The notes under the pieces were generated by a model, which searched no databases, had not been told where the DNA came from, and worked only from the letters and a program-made list of their open reading frames with translations. 47,827 nt of DNA from a candidate division WS1 bacterium. Its GTDB lineage: Bacteria > Armatimonadota > Zipacnadia > Zipacnadales > UBA5352. A program made the position numbers and the translations under genes. How positions within the stretch are numbered: position 1 is the first letter of the stretch; every line of letters starts with the position of its first letter. Positions 39,026-47,827 of this stretch are shown piece by piece. The stretch is taken from the NCBI GenBank assembly GCA_003566775.1, contig PXBW01000037.1, forward strand, positions 1-47,827. The letters are read 5' to 3'.

Positions 39026-40201
39026 TCATGTCACCATCATACCGTAGGCATAACCTGCGATCGTCGAAAGAACTACGACCACTCCGATGAACACCAGCGT
39101 CTTCTTCGTCCCCAGTACCCCGCGGATCACCAGCATGTTTGGCAGCGACAGAGCCGGCCCGGCCAGCAGCAGTGCGAGTGCGGGCCCCTGCCCCATCCCG
39201 CTCCCGATCAACCCCTCGAGGATTGGAATCTCGGTGAGCGTTGCGAAATACATCAGCGAGCCCACCAGCGATGCGGCAAAGTTAGCGAGCAGCGAATTGC
39301 CGCCGACCGCTTCCGCTATCCATCGCGCCGGGATGATACCGTGGTCTGTCCCGGGCATTCCCAGCAGGAAACCCGCGACCAGCACTCCCGCGAACAACAG
39401 CGGCATGATAAGATCGGTGAAGGTCCAGGTCTCATCGAGCCAGTCCTGAATCTCCTCGCGCGTATGCCAGCGCCACAGCATCAGCCCGAGCACCGCCAGC
39501 AACGGGATCACGATCCACCACTTAACCTGATAGATCTCCCACCACAGGCCTGCCTGCTCTTCCGGGCGCGCCCACGCCGCAAAGATCAGGATCAATACCA
39601 TCACCCCGATGAATGACGCGACCTTCCACAGAGGCTGCGTATCATCGTCTTCCTCCGCGAACTCGCTCTCGCACTGGGCCAGCCTTTCCTCCTCCTCGGC
39701 GCGGAACAGGCGCTGCATGATAACACCGATCACCACCCCGAAGACAATAGCCGCCACCGCACGCGCAGCACCCATCTGCAGCCCCAGCACTCGTGCCGTC
39801 AGAATTATCGCAAGCACGTTGATGGCAGGTCCGGCGTAAAGAAACGCCGAGGCCGGACCGATCCCCGCACCCTGTGAGTATATCCCAGCGAAGAGCGGCA
39901 GCACGGTGCACGAGCAGACCGCCAGCACCGTCCCCGAAGTCGAAGCCACCCCGTAGCATACGAATCGGTTCGCCTTCGGCCCGAGATACTTCATCACCGA
40001 CTCTCTGCGGATAAACACCGCGATCGCCCCGGCGATGAAGAACGCGGGCACCAGACAGTGGAGCACATGCGCACGGGCGTAGTACTGCAGTAACAGCCAC
40101 ATGTCCCACAGGGCGGTCTGCACCCGGGGATGGCTCAGAGGCACCAGGTAGATCGCGAGGAACACGACAACGTAAAGCGCAAGCTTCTGACGACTCGACA
40201 T
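39026..40201 (-). CDS. DUF318/ArsP-like permease (metal(loid) efflux type)
   Basis: The membrane protein has 391 residues and about eight to ten helices in two homologous halves. The first half has CYGVASTSGTVLAVCSCTVLPLFAGIYSQGAGIGPASAFLYAGPAINVLAII, the second SLMYFATLTEIPILEGLIGSGMGQGPALALLLAGPALSLPNMLVI; both are typical of the PF03773 permeases that export organoarsenicals or other metal(loid) compounds. A charged loop (about 190-215) separates them. The Cys in the CSCT motif are intact. The ATG at 40201 has AGGGGA upstream; the frame runs on into arsR but the extension has no family match. It lies between arsR and the thioredoxin-like gene. The exact substrate is not known. Confidence 0.9.
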   Translation of the reverse strand: MSSRQKLALYVVVFLAIYLVPLSHPRVQTALWDMWLLLQYYARAHVLHCLVPAFFIAGAIAVFIRRESVMKYLGPKANRFVCYGVASTSGTVLAVCSCTVLPLFAGIYSQGAGIGPASAFLYAGPAINVLAIILTARVLGLQMGAARAVAAIVFGVVIGVIMQRLFRAEEEERLAQCESEFAEEDDDTQPLWKVASFIGVMVLILIFAAWARPEEQAGLWWEIYQVKWWIVIPLLAVLGLMLWRWHTREEIQDWLDETWTFTDLIMPLLFAGVLVAGFLLGMPGTDHGIIPARWIAEAVGGNSLLANFAASLVGSLMYFATLTEIPILEGLIGSGMGQGPALALLLAGPALSLPNMLVIRGVLGTKKTLVFIGVVVVLSTIAGYAYGMMVT

Positions 40202-40277
40202 GAGCTTCAGGTTCCCCTTCGTATGCGTGACAGCGCCTTCCAGGCGCTTATTCCAGTGCGCGAACGTCCGCTGCTCG

Positions 40278-40595
40278 TCATGTCTCCACTGACTCGGCCA
40301 TGCGCTCGGCCGCATCGCGCCGCACCGCATCAATACAGTGGAAAAGTTCCATGATACACGGAACGAGGAGGCGGTAGTACCCCTGATTGCCCTCGCGCCT
40401 GCCCGTCACAATCCCCGCGTTCTTCATCTGCGCCAGATGACGCGACACCGTCGGCATCGTTGCGTCAACAAGCTCCTGAAGCTCACAGACGCAGCGCTCA
40501 CCCTCGGCAAGCGCCTCGACGAAGATGATCCGCGAGGGATGCGCCAGCGCCTTGACAACCTCCGCCCGAGCCTCATAAACCGCGTAGTCTTCCAC
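40278..40595 (-). CDS. ArsR-family metal(loid)-sensing repressor
   Basis: The product has 105 residues with a winged helix: LAHPSRIIFVEALAEGERCVCELQELVDATMPTVSRHLAQMKNAGIVTGRREGNQGYYRL. The ERCVCEL motif (Cys35, Cys37) is the As(III)/Sb(III)-type site of ArsR proteins. A further Cys lies at PCIMELFHC near the C-terminus. The start is GTG behind AGGAAGGG. It is the first gene of a set with the permease and thioredoxin-like genes, and a palindromic operator overlaps the promoter just upstream, so autorepression is likely. Confidence 0.93.
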   Translation of the reverse strand: MEDYAVYEARAEVVKALAHPSRIIFVEALAEGERCVCELQELVDATMPTVSRHLAQMKNAGIVTGRREGNQGYYRLLVPCIMELFHCIDAVRRDAAERMAESVET

Positions 40596-40734: not shown

Positions 40735-40972
40735 GTGCAGGGGGGAAAAATCCGGCCACCCTGCGCAGAAGAGCGGTGGCGTGTCTCCATGGCCCCGGAA
40801 CCGCACCGCCCCAATCCTCTGATGATATTCAACCGGTCCGGTGGCATCCTGGTGCTTCCCATCCACCGCCCTTACTGCCGGAGAGGACGCGAAGCCTTCG
40901 TTGAACCGAGGTGTCACCGAACGAGCGGCGAAAAGAGTACCCGATATCGCAGATGGTCACGGGAGTGATTCA

Positions 40973-41857
40973 ATGGTACGAATCGGAATGCTGTTCGGCG
41001 CAGGCAGCAAAGGTGAGACCGGATCGTTCCACTCCAATGTCTGGGCCTCGATCCTGAACGGCTTCGATCCCGCGCGCGCCCAGGCAGAGGACTGGCCGCA
41101 GATCGGTGGCGACCAGCCCCGCATCGACGGCGGCCGCATCGTCAGTCTGTGGGACCCGGACCGGGAAAGGGCCCGGCGCATGGCACGAGTCTACGGCATC
41201 GAGCGGGCCTGCGACAGTCCTGAGGAGCTTGCCGACAGCGTGGACGCCGCCCTGTTCGTTGAGGATGGAAGCTTCGATAAGCTGCCCCACATCAGACCGC
41301 TGCTCGAGCGCGGACTCCCCTGCTACCTCGACAAACCTCTCGCGCAGCGCGCCGAGGAAGCCGCGGAGATCGTTGATCTCGCCCACAGGCACGGCGCACC
41401 GCTGCTCTCATGCTCGGGATGGCGCTTCTGTGACGGAGCCGGGTACCTGCGCGAACAGATGGACCAGATCGGCGGCGCGAAACTGCTCATCGGCATCATC
41501 TCGATGTCCAGCTTTGACGTCTACGCGATCCACGGCGTTGAGATGGCGCTTGAACTGATAGGATCGGGCGTCGAGGAAGTTACGGGAATCGGCCGCGAGG
41601 GCGCCAGAGTCGCCTGCCTGCGCTGGTCCGACGGCAGACAGGCCGTGCTGCATCTATACGATCGATCCATCAGGGCAGGGCGTCGCTTCATCATCTACGG
41701 CCCTGACGGCCCGGCGGAGACCGCGGACCTCGGGGAGATTCATCCGCCTCTGCTCGAGCGCTTTCTTGAGATGTGTCGGACCCGCGAGAGCCCCCTCGAC
41801 AATGCCGAGATGATCGAGGCGGTTGAAATCCTTGAGAGAATCCGCGAGCAACCGTAG
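40973..41857 (+). CDS. Gfo/Idh/MocA-like oxidoreductase, short form (copy 1)
   Basis: The product has 294 residues, shorter than the usual 330-390. The N-terminus reads MVRIGMLFGAGSKGETGSFH and continues NVWASILNGFDP in place of a classic Gly-rich NAD loop. The fold is shown by RIVSLWDPDRERARRMARVYGIERACDSPEELADSVDAALF, then LPCYLDKPLAQRAEEA, where DKP stands for the usual EKP with its catalytic Lys. The C-terminal sheet domain is small. The ATG has GGGAG seven bases upstream. The next gene, 108 bases downstream, is a paralogue of the same layout. The substrate is unknown; a sugar or polyol derivative is usual for the family. Confidence 0.88.
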   Translation: MVRIGMLFGAGSKGETGSFHSNVWASILNGFDPARAQAEDWPQIGGDQPRIDGGRIVSLWDPDRERARRMARVYGIERACDSPEELADSVDAALFVEDGSFDKLPHIRPLLERGLPCYLDKPLAQRAEEAAEIVDLAHRHGAPLLSCSGWRFCDGAGYLREQMDQIGGAKLLIGIISMSSFDVYAIHGVEMALELIGSGVEEVTGIGREGARVACLRWSDGRQAVLHLYDRSIRAGRRFIIYGPDGPAETADLGEIHPPLLERFLEMCRTRESPLDNAEMIEAVEILERIREQP

Positions 41858-41965
41858 CACTGCCGCAGATGAACCTCGCATTGCAGGTAAGATCACGATC
41901 GATGATGAATCATGCCCGCGCCAGGACGTTTAGACTCACACATTTCGAATGAGGATGAGATATCC

Positions 41966-42880
41966 ATGATTCGCCTGGGCCTCACTGCAGCGGTTCATTT
42001 CGAAGGGGAGCGCGGCTGCCACCACGGGAACGCATTCTCCTCCATGTTCAACGGATGGAATCGTGAGCGCGCGGAAGAGCTTGGCTTCCCCACCGGCGGC
42101 GCCACCGATGATCGCGTCGAAGGCGCGAGAGTCGTCAGGATCTATGACGAGGACCGCGAGGGCGCCGAGATGATGGCGCAGATTTACGACATCGACGAGG
42201 TCTGCGACTCGCCTGAGGAACTCGCGGAGGGTACCGACGCGGTTATCGCCGCCGACAGCGGAGAGTTTGACAAGTGGAAGCTCGTGGTGCCGGCGCTGGA
42301 AGCGGGTCTGCCCACCTTCATTGACAAGCCGCTGGCCGAGACCCCCGGCGAGGCGCAGGAGATCGTTGACCTCGCGACGCAGCATGATGCGCCGCTGATG
42401 TCCTGCTCGAGCTTCAGATGGTGCGACGCCGCGCGCGAGATGCGTCAGCAACTCTCGGACCTCGGCACGCTCGAACTGCTGTCCGGCGTAAGCGGGCAGG
42501 GCAAGTACCACGTCTATGCGATCCATCCCGTTGAGTTGGTTTACGGCATCCTCGGCCCGGGCACCCGAACGGTTATCAACGTCGGAGAGGAGGACCGTGA
42601 CATCGTGCACATGCGCCGTGACGATGGCACTCAGGTAGTGCTCAACATGTTCTACCGGGAGGTCATCGCGGGAGGGCAGATGTTCACACTCTGTGGCTCC
42701 GGGGGATGGCACACCGTCACTGAACTCGGCGCGCTCTACCATCCGATGATGGAGGCGTTCCTCACCATGGCACGCACCCGGGAGATGCCGGTCGGTGCCG
42801 CAGAGATGGTCGAAGTCATCGCTGTAGTCGAGGCGGCACGACGCTCGCGCGAAAAAGGCGGAGTCGAGATCACCGTCTGA
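41966..42880 (+). CDS. Gfo/Idh/MocA-like oxidoreductase, short form (copy 2)
   Basis: The product has 304 residues and is paralogous to the gene before it. It starts MIRLGLTAAVHFEGERGCHH followed by GNAFSSMFNGWNRERAEELGFP, again with an H-x-N-x3-S-x2-NG pattern instead of a Gly-rich loop. RVVRIYDEDREGAEMMAQIYDIDEVCDSPEELAEGTDAVI and LPTFIDKPLAETPGEA show the Rossmann part and the DKP Lys; YAIHPVELVYGI lies in the second domain. The ATG has GAGGA ten bases upstream. It ends four bases before the convergent M56 peptidase gene. The pair may form a hetero-oligomer or act on related substrates. Confidence 0.88.
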   Translation: MIRLGLTAAVHFEGERGCHHGNAFSSMFNGWNRERAEELGFPTGGATDDRVEGARVVRIYDEDREGAEMMAQIYDIDEVCDSPEELAEGTDAVIAADSGEFDKWKLVVPALEAGLPTFIDKPLAETPGEAQEIVDLATQHDAPLMSCSSFRWCDAAREMRQQLSDLGTLELLSGVSGQGKYHVYAIHPVELVYGILGPGTRTVINVGEEDRDIVHMRRDDGTQVVLNMFYREVIAGGQMFTLCGSGGWHTVTELGALYHPMMEAFLTMARTREMPVGAAEMVEVIAVVEAARRSREKGGVEITV

Positions 42881-42884
42881 CCAT

Positions 42885-43898
42885 TCAGTTCAGCGCCGCG
42901 ATCAGTTGCTCGAAGGCACAGAATAGAGTGTCATCGACCGGCCGACGCGCCGCAATCAGAAGCAGAGCAACCACCACAAGCCCCACGACGGCCGCGGCCA
43001 TTCCTCTCCAGGGATGACTCGCGGCCGTCTCTGCTTCCACGGAGATACACTCCAGACGCCGCCGGCGCAGATCGATAAGCGCCGGCGCGGGAATCAGCAG
43101 CGTGGCGATGGAGGGCGTCGCAGGTCGTGAGCGCGTCGCCTCACCGGCCACGGCCAGTGCGTTCTTCAGCACCACAGGCGAGACGCCCATAAGTATCGCC
43201 GCATCGTCCGCCGCGGTCTCCTGTGCCTCACGCAGACGATCGCGATAGTACCACGCGGGCGGCGACAGCGCCTGCACTGTTGCGCATACCTCAGCCACCA
43301 GTCGCATCAGATTGTCGAACCTGCGGGCGTGGGCTCTCTCATGCGCCACGATCGCCGCAAGCTCCGCCGAGTCAAGAGAGCTTCGCAGCGACGATGAAAC
43401 CACGATCACCGGACGCAGCAAGCCCGCATTGAACGACACCGAACGGTCGAGATCCACCAGCAGTACATCCTCCGCCTCTTCTTCGAGTGGAACCCCACTG
43501 GAGAGCATCATCCGACGCAGCAGATGACTGCCGATAATCGTGGCGATAAGACGTATCAGCGCCACACACATCAGCAGCAGCGCGAGCCACCCAAAAGCGC
43601 GCATCGCGAAAGCGCCTGCGGGCGCATTCAGCAGCGGCAGCAGACACAGGTGCGGGCGCAGACCGGCAATGTGCGGCGACGCTGCCACGCCTTCGCCATG
43701 GAGAGAGTACGCGAGAAGAGATGCCCCGATGCCGACCACAGGAGGCAGAATCAGCGACGCCAGCCAGACTCTCGCCCGGCTGGCGGCATGGAACTCCCCG
43801 GCGGTCTCAGCAAGCGCCGCCGCCGGCAGCGCCATCAGCAGACTCAACGCGAAGGCCGTGGCGACGAGTATCGCCGCTCCCGCCATCAGCCACGTCAT
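42885..43898 (-). CDS. BlaR1-like M56 membrane metallopeptidase without sensor domain
   Basis: The protein has 337 residues. Three to four N-terminal membrane helices precede a cytoplasmic zinc peptidase domain with HERAH (His186, His190) and the third-ligand region REAQETAADDAA. A late helix (about 300-320) is followed by only some 17 residues, so the external sensor domain of BlaR1/MecR1 is missing. In the family, such peptidases cleave the partner BlaI-type repressor when triggered. Its start overlaps the blaI-like stop by one base, so the two are translationally coupled. No beta-lactamase gene is nearby. The trigger is unknown. Confidence 0.92.
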   Translation of the reverse strand: MTWLMAGAAILVATAFALSLLMALPAAALAETAGEFHAASRARVWLASLILPPVVGIGASLLAYSLHGEGVAASPHIAGLRPHLCLLPLLNAPAGAFAMRAFGWLALLLMCVALIRLIATIIGSHLLRRMMLSSGVPLEEEAEDVLLVDLDRSVSFNAGLLRPVIVVSSSLRSSLDSAELAAIVAHERAHARRFDNLMRLVAEVCATVQALSPPAWYYRDRLREAQETAADDAAILMGVSPVVLKNALAVAGEATRSRPATPSIATLLIPAPALIDLRRRRLECISVEAETAASHPWRGMAAAVVGLVVVALLLIAARRPVDDTLFCAFEQLIAALN

Positions 43899-44374
43899 CA
43901 GCTCTCCCGATCGCTCCTCCGGCGCCTGCGATGCTCGTCTACAAGATCGGCGAGTTCATCGAGCCGATCCGGTGATGAGTCTCCCATCGCCTCGACGAAG
44001 TACGATATCGCGGGCTCCGCGAAGCTCGACAGCAGGCCGTCAATAACCCGACGCGTTACATTGCGCCCAAGCTCTCCACGCGTCAGCGCGGGCCAGTAAA
44101 AGTAAGCCCGACCCTGCTGCTCGCGCTCCAGCAGGCCCTTCTCATGCAGGCGACTCATTGTGGTCATGATCGTGGTGTACGCGGCCTCCTTACCCTGCTC
44201 CTCAAGCGCCGCGCGCACATCCTCCACGGACACCCTTTCCCCCGCATCCCATATAGCCTCCATCACCTGCGCCTCGAGAGTCCCCAGCGCCTGCTCCAGC
44301 CCGCTCCTGTCGAGCTTGAATACCGACAGATCCGGCTCATGGTCATCCCTTGGATTGTCCCCTTGCCCGCTCAT
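43898..44374 (-). CDS. BlaI/MecI-family transcriptional repressor
   Basis: The product has 158 residues. The winged helix LGTLEAQVMEAIWDAGERVSVEDVRAALEEQGKEAAYTTIMTTMSRLHEKGLLEREQQGRAYFY is characteristic, with the recognition helix at AAYTTIMTTMSRL. The C-terminus provides dimerisation and ends in an Arg-rich tail. An N-terminal extension of about 25 residues (SGQGDNPRDDHEPDLSV) precedes the usual start. It represses its own operon with the M56 peptidase through the palindrome over the -10 box just upstream. Target genes elsewhere are possible. Confidence 0.93.
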   Translation of the reverse strand: MSGQGDNPRDDHEPDLSVFKLDRSGLEQALGTLEAQVMEAIWDAGERVSVEDVRAALEEQGKEAAYTTIMTTMSRLHEKGLLEREQQGRAYFYWPALTRGELGRNVTRRVIDGLLSSFAEPAISYFVEAMGDSSPDRLDELADLVDEHRRRRRSDRES

Positions 44375-44421
44375 CTCAACTCCACCCTGGCCTTAACCTG
44401 TCCGAAGTCGCGCGATGCTTG

Positions 44422-44459
44422 CTACTATGTATTATAGTAGACGCGTAAGCCTTTGTCCA
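44422..44459 (-). promoter_or_regulatory. Promoter and palindromic operator of the BlaI-M56 pair
   Basis: On the minus strand TGGACA (44454-44459) and TATAAT (44431-44436) are 17 bases apart. A 7-5-7 palindrome, CTACTAT-N5-ATAGTAG (44422-44440), covers the -10 box. It has the TACT/AGTA character of BlaI operators, so BlaI would shut off its own promoter. Confidence 0.8.
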
Positions 44460-44520
44460 GTTCATTCTCGCGGGCAGATTCCCCGACCGCAGGTCCCGAA
44501 CAACTCCCGAACACTCGGCA

Positions 44521-45294
44521 TCACTCGATCCCGGCGACGGATTCGAGCACCCACGTGGGTTCGATCGATGAGCCCTCCAATTCGTCCCGCGCTGTGACGC
44601 CCGTCAACACAAGCGCGGTGTCGAGGCCGGACTCCTGCCCCATCTCCATGTCAGTGTCAAGCCGGTCTCCAACCATCAGACATTGCTCCGCACTGAGGCC
44701 TATCTCCGCCAGCGCCATCTCCGTGATAATCGGCGAAGGCTTGCCGATCATGATGTCGAGCTTTCGGCCGGTCGAGGCCTCGAGATAGGCGATGATCGCC
44801 CCGGTATCAGGAACGGTCTTACCTCCCTCAAGCGGACAGACCGTGTCCGGATTGGTCGCACAGAACAGCGCCCCGCGCCGCAGGGCCTGATGGGCGGCAT
44901 CAAGCTGCGGCCATGAGATAGTCCGGTCCCATGACGCAAGGACTATCTCAGCCTCCTCGTGATCCTCTGTCAATCGCACCCCCGCCTCAGTCAACTCCTC
45001 GTTCAGAGCGGCCTCACCCATCGATAGCACCGATGCACCCGGATGCTCTGCCGCGAGATACCGCGCCGAGGCCAGCGGGGAGTTGACGACATCCCCCGCC
45101 TCAGTCGCAATGCCCAGCTTCGACAGCTTCTCCGCGTAACTCTCCCGTCGCGCAATCGGCTTGTTCGAGAGAAACTGCACTCGCGCCGAGCGTGCCCGGA
45201 GCCTTGCCACCGTCTCGGCTGCTCCCGGGATCAACTCCTCGCCAAGATAGATCGTTCCGTCGAGATCAAACAGATACCCCGCGTATGACTTCAC
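44521..45294 (-). CDS. HAD-superfamily phosphatase, NagD-like (class IIA)
   Basis: The protein has 257 residues from the GTG at 45294, the usual NagD length. Motif I is YLFDLDGTIYLGEE (Asp10, Asp12), motif II is FLSNKPIARRESYAEKLSKLG, motif III is near IMIGKPSPIITEMAL, and motif IV is VGDRLDTDMEMGQ. The IIA cap lies between. Such enzymes dephosphorylate nucleotides, sugar phosphates or p-nitrophenyl phosphate; the natural substrate is unknown. AAGGG precedes the GTG by seven bases. An in-frame ATG at 45360 has no ribosome-binding site and would add 22 polar residues. It lies after the phosphodiesterase-fold gene on the same strand. Confidence 0.93.
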   Translation of the reverse strand: MKSYAGYLFDLDGTIYLGEELIPGAAETVARLRARSARVQFLSNKPIARRESYAEKLSKLGIATEAGDVVNSPLASARYLAAEHPGASVLSMGEAALNEELTEAGVRLTEDHEEAEIVLASWDRTISWPQLDAAHQALRRGALFCATNPDTVCPLEGGKTVPDTGAIIAYLEASTGRKLDIMIGKPSPIITEMALAEIGLSAEQCLMVGDRLDTDMEMGQESGLDTALVLTGVTARDELEGSSIEPTWVLESVAGIE

Positions 45295-45398
45295 GTCTTC
45301 ACCCTTCTCATCCGGCTTGTTTCCGTACCGCCACTTCCTCTGGTCTCTCGCGTTCTCCATTCATCGCGTGCGACGATATCATCCGTCGCTTCTGATAC

Positions 45399-45494: not shown

Positions 45495-47162
45495 CTACGG
45501 CTCCTCGCCGGGCCCTCCAATGCACGCTTCCACGGCCCGCGACGCCTCTTCGATCCGCGCATGATCCTCTACCACGCGTGGCAGACTTCGGTCGAAAATA
45601 CGGATCGGATGATCGGCCCGCCACCGCTGTGTGACCGCCTGTTCGAGAACCCGCCCATCGAGGTAACCGGGGACACCCTCGCCCGCGAGATACATGATCG
45701 TTGCGGTTATGTCCTCGACGCGCGCTCCTTCAATCCTGGCGCCGCGCCGAATCCCCGCGCCCGCCGCCACGATTATCCCCTCGGCCCCCGGTGTCCCGGA
45801 CGGGAAATGCCCCCCGGACGGACGCGCAACCCGCACCCGACCGTCGAGACCGGTGGCCGTCAGGCCGGTCACCACGTGCGGCGACCGCCAGCGCGTCACT
45901 ATGTGTGGAATCCGGTCCACATAGGGACCGGAACACACCCGTTCACGCGGCTGAGCCCACTCCAGCGGACGCCTCCCGGTTGCGGGATCGATCGCCGTTT
46001 GCAGCGCTCCGATAACCTGCAGCTTCAGGCGATCGACCTGTCCGGGGTCAACGCAGCCCAGCGGAAACTCGCTCATGAGGTTCAGGTGCATCTGTCCCCC
46101 GGGCGCGGGAATCACTGAGCTTCGCTCGTAATCAAGCCACGCGTCTTCGGAGTTTCCCCTCCGGTCATCGTCATCCTCAGACTCCGGGAGCATCTCCGCG
46201 ATACCTTCCGGAAGCACCTCGCGGATCACTGAGAGAAAGTCATGCGCGCCACGGCTCACACCTGTTGCAACCGAATGCCACCAGCCTCGGGCGGAGGAAC
46301 GCGTCCGCAGCAATCCCAGATACGCCATCAACTCGGGAAGGCACGATGCTACCCTGCTGTTGAGAGAGGTTCCGTATGGAGAGATTACCAGCACCTGATC
46401 GTCAGGACCAAGTAGATCGAGCAGCCTTCCGATGACTGCGTCAATCTCGCGGTGAATGACGGTCAGGAGCTTACCGTGCGCTGCATGAAGGTCATCCCGA
46501 AAGTCCAGGTGATTGCGATCGAAGAGATGCCAGTACCACCGCAGAATGCGCCCGAGTTCGCTGAAGCTTATGGCGAACACGTCCCATCGGCCGTCATCCA
46601 GCAGTTTCTCGGCAACCGACGCTTTCGCCCGTAGCGCCGCGACCGCTTCCTCGACCCCGTCCTCGTAGCTCCCTGCGGCTGCATGATGCCTTGCATCAAC
46701 GTGCAACGGGCTTTCCTTGAGGCTGCGCCTTACGAGATCCCTCACCCGCCGCGGATATGCGAAAGCCTCGTCATCACTTGAGGGAGCCAGCCATCCGGAT
46801 ACGGTCACCCACTCGGCCTCCGGAGCCGGATAGGTCATCGGGACAAAGAACGTCCCAACGGACCGACCCCGGTCGGCGAGAAGCTGAGAGAGCGACGGGA
46901 CCCGCAACATGCGCGAGTTTGCCGCCCGCCACTGGTAACTCTTTGGCACCAGATTGTGCAGCGCCCAGACACCGTGCTTGCCCGGATTGACTCCGGTGAG
47001 TACGCTCGACCATGCGCAGATCGGATCGGTGTTCGCTGCCGATTGCAGACGGCCGTACACACCGTGCCGCATCAACGACCGCAGCGCCGGCATCTGGCCG
47101 GTCGAGGTGAGTCGTTCCACCAGCTCGGGGGTGGCGCCATCGATGCTGACTACCAGCAGCAT
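45495..47162 (-). CDS. Type I phosphodiesterase/nucleotide pyrophosphatase-fold protein with lost catalytic residues
   Basis: The protein has 555 residues and no signal peptide. It has the fold marks of the PF01663 family: VVSIDGATPELVERL (Asp8), MPALRSLMRHGVYGRLQS, WSSVLTGVNPGKHGVWAL and a final GGHFPSGTPGAEGIIVAAGAGI. Residues that bind metal or act as nucleophile in relatives are changed. P47 stands where T-x-P-A-W is usual (a nearby Thr45 exists). G204 and R208 stand in place of the Asp and His of V-D-R-I-H-H, and SPYG (261-264) replaces SDHG. It is therefore probably inactive as a canonical phosphoesterase, or acts by another mechanism. The intact frame suggests selection for the fold. 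It precedes the HAD gene on the same strand. Confidence 0.88.
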   Translation of the reverse strand: MLLVVSIDGATPELVERLTSTGQMPALRSLMRHGVYGRLQSAANTDPICAWSSVLTGVNPGKHGVWALHNLVPKSYQWRAANSRMLRVPSLSQLLADRGRSVGTFFVPMTYPAPEAEWVTVSGWLAPSSDDEAFAYPRRVRDLVRRSLKESPLHVDARHHAAAGSYEDGVEEAVAALRAKASVAEKLLDDGRWDVFAISFSELGRILRWYWHLFDRNHLDFRDDLHAAHGKLLTVIHREIDAVIGRLLDLLGPDDQVLVISPYGTSLNSRVASCLPELMAYLGLLRTRSSARGWWHSVATGVSRGAHDFLSVIREVLPEGIAEMLPESEDDDDRRGNSEDAWLDYERSSVIPAPGGQMHLNLMSEFPLGCVDPGQVDRLKLQVIGALQTAIDPATGRRPLEWAQPRERVCSGPYVDRIPHIVTRWRSPHVVTGLTATGLDGRVRVARPSGGHFPSGTPGAEGIIVAAGAGIRRGARIEGARVEDITATIMYLAGEGVPGYLDGRVLEQAVTQRWRADHPIRIFDRSLPRVVEDHARIEEASRAVEACIGGPGEEP

Positions 47163-47287: not shown

Positions 47288-47296
47288 ATTATACCA
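47288..47296 (-). promoter_or_regulatory. Extended -10 promoter candidate of the phosphodiesterase-fold gene
   Basis: On the minus strand TGGTATAAT gives a perfect -10 box with the TGn extension, about 125 bases before the start codon. The -35 region (GGACGA at 17 bases) is weak, as is common for extended -10 promoters. Confidence 0.45.
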
Positions 47297-47714: not shown

Positions 47715-47827
47715 TCAGGCAAAGAACGCCAGCACGACGTTGGCACCCCACCCCAACCCCAGCACTACCAGCACCCACTGCGCCACCCTCGATGACAGCA
47801 TCCACCCCGGAAGAGGCGGCCGCCCCC
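47715..47827 (-). CDS. 3' end of a gene for a membrane protein (start outside window)
   Basis: The minus-strand frame open to the window edge ends with a TGA at 47715-47717. Its last residues are RVAQWVLVVLGLGWGANVVLAFFA, a basic residue followed by one hydrophobic helix that ends the protein. The fragment has 36 readable residues, too few to name. Same-strand position suggests it lies upstream of the phosphodiesterase-fold gene, about 550 bases away. Confidence 0.45.
   Translation of the reverse strand, partial: GRPPLPGWMLSSRVAQWVLVVLGLGWGANVVLAFFA

Follow-up and report, generated by a model that had tools for sequence, protein, structure and literature searches.

The orphan gene and its surroundings

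The window, by which we mean the whole 47,827-nucleotide stretch of DNA analysed here, carries near one end a minus-strand gene whose frame runs unbroken for 555 codons, from an ATG at 47162 to a stop at 45495, so that the intact 555-residue frame described in an earlier, sequence-only reading is real. Its product is a member of the Pfam family PF01663 (Phosphodiest; E-value 4.4e-22; score 79.6 bits, cut-off 23). The gene and the features discussed below are collected in Table 1. Upstream, both the window and its contig end inside a gene for a DUF2752-protein homologue, the remaining end of which is 53% identical over 32 residues to a protein of G003, a relative from the same family, and is more weakly similar to two others. 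The DUF2752 protein gene precedes a Wza-like gene in the relatives; in the window, 552 bp separate its end from the start of our ORF, and the relatives have Wza and Wzz genes in that place. The perfect extended -10 element upstream of the gene is the single match to TGGTATAAT within the window (0.14 expected), which weakly suggests a possible promoter of the gene's own; a two-hexamer promoter scan found none.

Table 1. Features of the pseudoenzyme gene and its flanks (window coordinates).
Feature	Position	Strand	Remarks
Putative 555-aa pseudo-phosphodiesterase with predicted NPP/alkaline-phosphatase superfamily fold	45495..47162	-	ORF, PF01663, fold model
D8 codon (IDGA)	47139..47141	-	sole kept catalytic position of seven
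P47 codon, nucleophile column	47022..47024	-	Pro in 9/9 orthologues
Codons 204-208	46539..46553	-	D to G204, H to R208
P262-Y263 codons	46374..46379	-	replacing D-H of SDHG
P458 codon	45789..45791	-	column of the family's last ligand His
H452 codon (GGH)	45807..45809	-	outside the family ligand column
C-terminal end of DUF2752-protein homologue	47715..47825	-	window and contig end inside
HAD hydrolase gene	44521..45360	-	downstream of the pseudoenzyme gene
Perfect extended -10 element TGGTATAAT	47288..47296	-	about 126 bp before the start codon

The HAD gene that follows in the window is found, in relatives, on contigs other than that of the polysaccharide locus, lying beside a PNP_UDP_1 phosphorylase gene (presumably MTAP) in four of six loci, the other two being at or near a contig end. 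Elsewhere in the window organism's own genome, contig C101 carries a PNP_UDP_1 phosphorylase gene followed by DUF4268, Trm112 methyltransferase and GH106-like genes; in the relative G001 the polysaccharide locus itself continues with a Trm112-type methyltransferase, GT4 glycosyltransferases and a GH106-like gene. The own genome's polysaccharide locus thus looks split, with pieces on contigs C300 and C101, and both junctions (that in the window and that on C101) fit one exchange that divided the locus. A chimeric contig could also have produced these new neighbours but is unlikely given the complementary pieces on C101. Neither the phosphodiesterase gene that follows the pseudoenzyme gene in relatives (the sister enzyme, below), for which there is no second match, nor the Wzz partner (best match 26%, over part of its length) was found in the own genome, an absence that is no proof because this genome is 91% complete. 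Wza-like proteins have ten matches elsewhere in it, at 31-37% identity.

Beyond the HAD gene, we observed that the HAD, BlaI-type repressor and M56 peptidase genes are consecutive at 42885-45360 on the minus strand, with the HAD-BlaI adjacency present also in five of the six relatives' loci read and M56 in three. Two adjacent plus-strand GFO/IDH/MocA oxidoreductase genes (40841-41857 and 41912-42880) are perhaps a tandem duplication; three relatives each have a single locus for the pair, which matches at 37-39% with the first gene and at 65-75% with the second. An ArsP-type permease gene adjoins an ArsR-family repressor gene at 39026-40595 on the minus strand.

Predicted fold and catalytic positions

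An AlphaFold2 model built from a 64-row alignment (among the nine orthologues described below, made for the window protein alone) had a mean pLDDT of 91.7 and a pTM of 0.90. Its closest structures were ENPP3 (Z 27.9, rmsd 3.4, 356 aligned), ENPP5 (Z 27.5) and the Xac NPP (Z 27.4), which we count as tied, as we do all structure matches differing by less than 1 Z. Because these best structural matches of the model are NPPs, the NPP/alkaline-phosphatase superfamily fold is kept in the protein as predicted. A model of the sister enzyme from G006 gave a Z of about 29 and the same kind of predicted fold. By inspection the window protein appears to be cytoplasmic, because it begins directly at the first beta strand.

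The catalytic site was followed at seven aligned positions which, as established for NPPs and PhnA, we take to be the metal ligands and the nucleophile. The alignment held the window protein and 160 relatives, 161 of 200 matches having been retained after duplicates and short matches were dropped. The window protein reads D8, P47, G204, R208, P262, Y263 and P458, and so keeps D8 alone: the Thr/Ser nucleophile is absent, the profile aligning P47 with the Thr of the Xac NPP and with that of PhnA, and D8 is also all that is retained of the six Asp/His metal ligands of NPP enzymes. Outside the orthologue group the set D-[ST]-D-H-D-H-H is complete in 143 of 152 aligned relatives. The remaining nine comprise five truncated sequences, the sister gene of G008, which is apparently frameshifted at its C-terminal end, and L090, L089 and the short L115, which have true substitutions. 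In the archaeal relative L089 (7992-9569), M and Y stand at the D204 and H208 columns and the five remaining positions are kept; this is possibly another, partial loss, judged from the alignment. At single columns the wider family hardly varies: of 149 non-orthologues having a letter in the nucleophile column, 148 have S or T, and of 150 having one in column 458, 149 have His.

The losses first listed from the sequence alone (Thr/Ser to P47, D to G204, H to R208 and the D-H of SDHG to P262-Y263) are therefore real. The same reading took three motifs as kept, and here IDGA (with D8) and LTGVNPGKHG stand while the last GGH does not. H452 of this GGH lies six residues upstream of column 458, where the family alignment puts the near-invariant last ligand His and the window protein has P458, and we therefore reject H452 as a kept ligand and count six of the seven positions as lost. 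Eight orthologues, the window protein among them, have column 452 itself; six carry Arg in it, while the window protein and that of G008 carry His.

Orthologues, operon and constraint in the relatives

We searched 46 genomes of Zipacnadia, a class of Armatimonadota that PMC10290634 proposes. At a threshold of E<=1e-80, orthologues were present in nine of ten genomes of the window organism's family, its own included, and in none of the 36 Zipacnadia genomes outside that family; the one family genome lacking a match, G004, is 59% complete. The weaker matches in the 36 outside genomes fall, where aligned, in the group that keeps its site. A single-sequence scan of genome contigs found no relative. 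The organisms bearing orthologues include candidate division WS1, Candidatus Zipacnadia (two) and Armatimonadetes UBA5352. The pseudoenzyme, present in nine of ten family genomes, is thus no lone oddity, and since P47 and R208 are common to eight relatives' separate genomes, a sequencing or annotation artefact was also rejected.

P47 and R208 are invariant across all nine orthologues: of the substitutions whose conservation the sequence-only reading had proposed to check, these two are conserved, with the nucleophile or H208 restored in none of the nine. D8 is kept in eight and is E in one; D204 is D in seven, E in one and G in the window protein alone. Column 262 may be G, A, T, P or V, a variability exceeding that of 83% of columns (seven full-length rows), and this column varies while the fold motifs are conserved. 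Column 263 is Y, H or C, and column 458 is P, A or Q, the Q standing near the frame break of G007. As clade-specific we counted residues that are fixed in the orthologues having a letter and whose frequency among the remaining relatives is at most 5%; beside P47 and R208 these include H420 (Asp in 145 relatives), W118 (Gly in 147), C410, Y345 and A487. The pseudoenzyme frames of G005 and G007 are apparently broken, once each. Together with the apparent frameshift in the sister gene of G008, these breaks concern L057 13328-15259, L058 7072-8636 and L056 9096-10600, and they are either assembly errors or real decay.

In FastTree analysis of 156 rows (five truncated rows of the 161 and the seven catalytic columns having been omitted), a branch (support 100, stem 1.17) separates the nine orthologues from all the other rows; the program's output warned of long branches, and the tree gave no resolved sister group for this clade.

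In relatives the gene sits in an operon-like arrangement. A gene for a protein with Wzz and GNVR domains lies 52-67 bp upstream of it in all eight. Six of these relatives show a DUF2752 homologue, a Wza-like gene and the Wzz gene in that order; in G002 and G006 the contig stops too early to show it. Wzz and Wza are pointers to exopolysaccharide or capsule export. A PF01663 sister gene comes after the pseudoenzyme gene in all eight and appears whole in seven, being apparently frameshifted in G008. Among the six relatives with an unbroken pseudoenzyme gene (G005 and G007 not being counted), the inferred start of the sister gene overlaps the pseudoenzyme stop by four bases in two, G002 and G003, and falls one base past that stop in four. 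Away from the family this setting is rare: when loci of the wider PF01663 family were scored by similarity to the own family's proteins, Wzz/Wza genes appeared at just 2 of 76, so the export-locus link is shown for the window organism's family alone; GT4 genes were present at 19 of the 76. In distant microbes (L066, L068, L072, L073, L093 and others) we also observed clustering of PF01663-like genes: of the 79 loci in which such a gene was counted, 35 have two to six close together.

The pseudoenzyme is under purifying selection in the relatives. Between G003 and G002 its dN is 0.132 and dS 0.961, where the sister gene has 0.195 and 0.807. Both genes were measured in ten genome pairs, and dN is lower in the pseudoenzyme in seven of them and higher in three. 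Mean column entropy is 0.92 for seven pseudoenzymes and 0.95 for eight sister proteins. From dN/dS and entropy, therefore, the relatives' pseudoenzyme is constrained about as tightly as the sister enzyme. The view of the sequence-only reading that this is a pseudoenzyme gains support, on sequence evidence, from the absence of any restored site, from this purifying selection and from the operon position in relatives, which suggest a retained though probably non-catalytic role.

A putative role in exopolysaccharide export

We consider that the ancestral phosphate-cutting chemistry has very probably gone from the window protein, because the sequence offers no nucleophile and at most two ligand candidates, and because the D262 column is variable. 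It is very improbable that the protein is an enzyme of the ancestral type still, working either through ligands that have migrated (H452 among them) or with one metal only. Such an enzyme might explain why D8 persists in eight orthologues and D204 in seven, and why a His stands at column 452 in the window protein and in G008, by spacing presumably near the site of the NPP GSHG motif; against it are the Arg of the six other orthologues at that column, the Arg208 and Pro47 of all nine, and a window protein left with D8 from the seven positions plus H452 as a possible second ligand.

The reading we prefer, at a probability of about 0.5, is of a clade-specific NPP/alkaline-phosphatase pseudoenzyme acting as a non-catalytic partner in exopolysaccharide export. 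The pseudoenzyme would have had a single origin, probably by duplication, and would have lost its nucleophile and binuclear metal site inside a locus for exopolysaccharide export in a single Zipacnadia family. Through overlapping or one-base-apart genes it may be made in step with the sister phosphodiesterase, which it could then regulate or scaffold at the Wzz co-polymerase/Wza export machine. We give about even odds to a non-catalytic partnership, be it with the neighbouring phosphodiesterase or with the export machine, a proposal drawn from the gene coupling and constraint and from analogy with pseudoenzyme-enzyme pairs. The absent activity, the physical partnership and the polysaccharide role are what we infer from these data. 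The window copy would be an orphan with an intact frame, which either functions by itself or is beginning to decay; that the own genome keeps the pseudoenzyme without its partner argues against a strictly obligate partnership. Also weighing against the preferred reading are the apparent breaks in two orthologues and one sister gene, the long window branch (below) and the scarcity of Wzz/Wza genes at loci of the wider PF01663 family.

Decay deserves weight here, and it is possible, though we think it doubtful, that the window gene is a non-functional relic, its operon lost, with its extra odd residues neutral. This would fit the failure to find the sister enzyme and Wzz partner in the own genome, the scatter of the locus over C300 and C101, and a G204 found in no other orthologue. 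It would also fit the rate of change: across seven of the nine orthologues (both broken-frame ones being omitted) the window branch, at 0.52 changes per site, exceeds the 0.12-0.29 of five but not the 0.78 of G008, and 20 of 176 otherwise-invariant columns are broken in it, against 6-9 in the five and 40 of 196 in G008, while its p12/p3 is 0.066 against 0.036-0.055, with third positions saturated. Four control genes were compared over those of six relatives having each. BlaI shows no long window branch (0.11) and the oxidoreductase only a moderate one (0.16), points which favour a relic. In the oxidoreductase and in M56 (0.49) the window branch is comparable to the others; in HAD it is clearly long (0.30), which speaks against a relic. 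With HAD the only clearly long control, some relaxation on the orphan is possible, and the long branch and broken invariants may mean relaxed constraint. A relic would, however, have to have kept an unbroken frame through 555 codons and the perfect extended -10 upstream, and the window-G001 dN/dS is about 0.17 by NG86 (with dS near saturation). The losses at 47, 208 and 458, moreover, predate the split of the locus, since operon-bound orthologues have them too.

A new use for the old pocket would also account for a gene kept by its own genome without a partner. We think it unlikely that R208, H420, W118 and other clade invariants form a new ligand site or chemistry, such as metal-free binding of a nucleotide-sugar or lipid-linked phosphate: the fixing of P47, R208, H420, W118, C410, Y345 and A487, each at 5% or less elsewhere, points that way, but several clade invariants may be structural and column 262 is variable. 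Decidedly unlikely, in our estimation, is a version which joins such a pocket to export control, in which a metal-free sensor or scaffold would bind a phosphorylated sugar or lipid carrier (via Pro47, Arg208, perhaps His420 and Trp118), set the activity of the sister enzyme or the Wzz co-polymerase, and survive operon break-up because it can work alone.

The dead paralogue, whose gene in six relatives is coupled to the sister gene, opens the way to directly testing the function of cytoplasmic PF01663 proteins beside polysaccharide genes. The orphan window copy is a natural test of the pseudoenzyme's need for a partner, and the apparently broken-up locus suggests how a pseudoenzyme may outlive its operon. 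Among the matches listed in a licence-limited literature search, none was an alkaline-phosphatase-superfamily pseudoenzyme in a bacterial polysaccharide locus.

Compared with known systems, the window protein resembles the NPPs (Xac NPP, ENPP1/3/5) in predicted fold over residues 1-522, and a sequence profile aligns its IDG and nucleophile regions with theirs; unlike them, it is without six of the seven catalytic positions. With PhnA (TIGR02335) it shares weak N-terminal sequence similarity over residues 3-103 but is without the nucleophile, and phosphonoacetate hydrolase identity was rejected at 20.5 bits, far under the cut-off of 407.55. The sister enzyme (the TPNYQSASAW clade) has 29-34% identity, the same kind of predicted fold and, in relatives, the same operon; it differs in having Ser at the nucleophile column, and seven of the eight sister genes retain all seven positions, that of G008 being apparently frameshifted before the last. 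Both pseudoenzymes and pairings of a dead with a live paralogue are already known as kinds. The main text of PMC10211241, which has no match for alkaline phosphatase or phosphodiesterase, describes such pairs in an inactive S-adenosylmethionine decarboxylase homologue, MTMR13-MTMR2 and Fam20A-Fam20C. As in those pairs (PMC10211241), an inactive relative is retained beside an active one in the operons of this Zipacnadia family; the folds are other ones, and the partnership shown there is, for the window protein, a proposed one.
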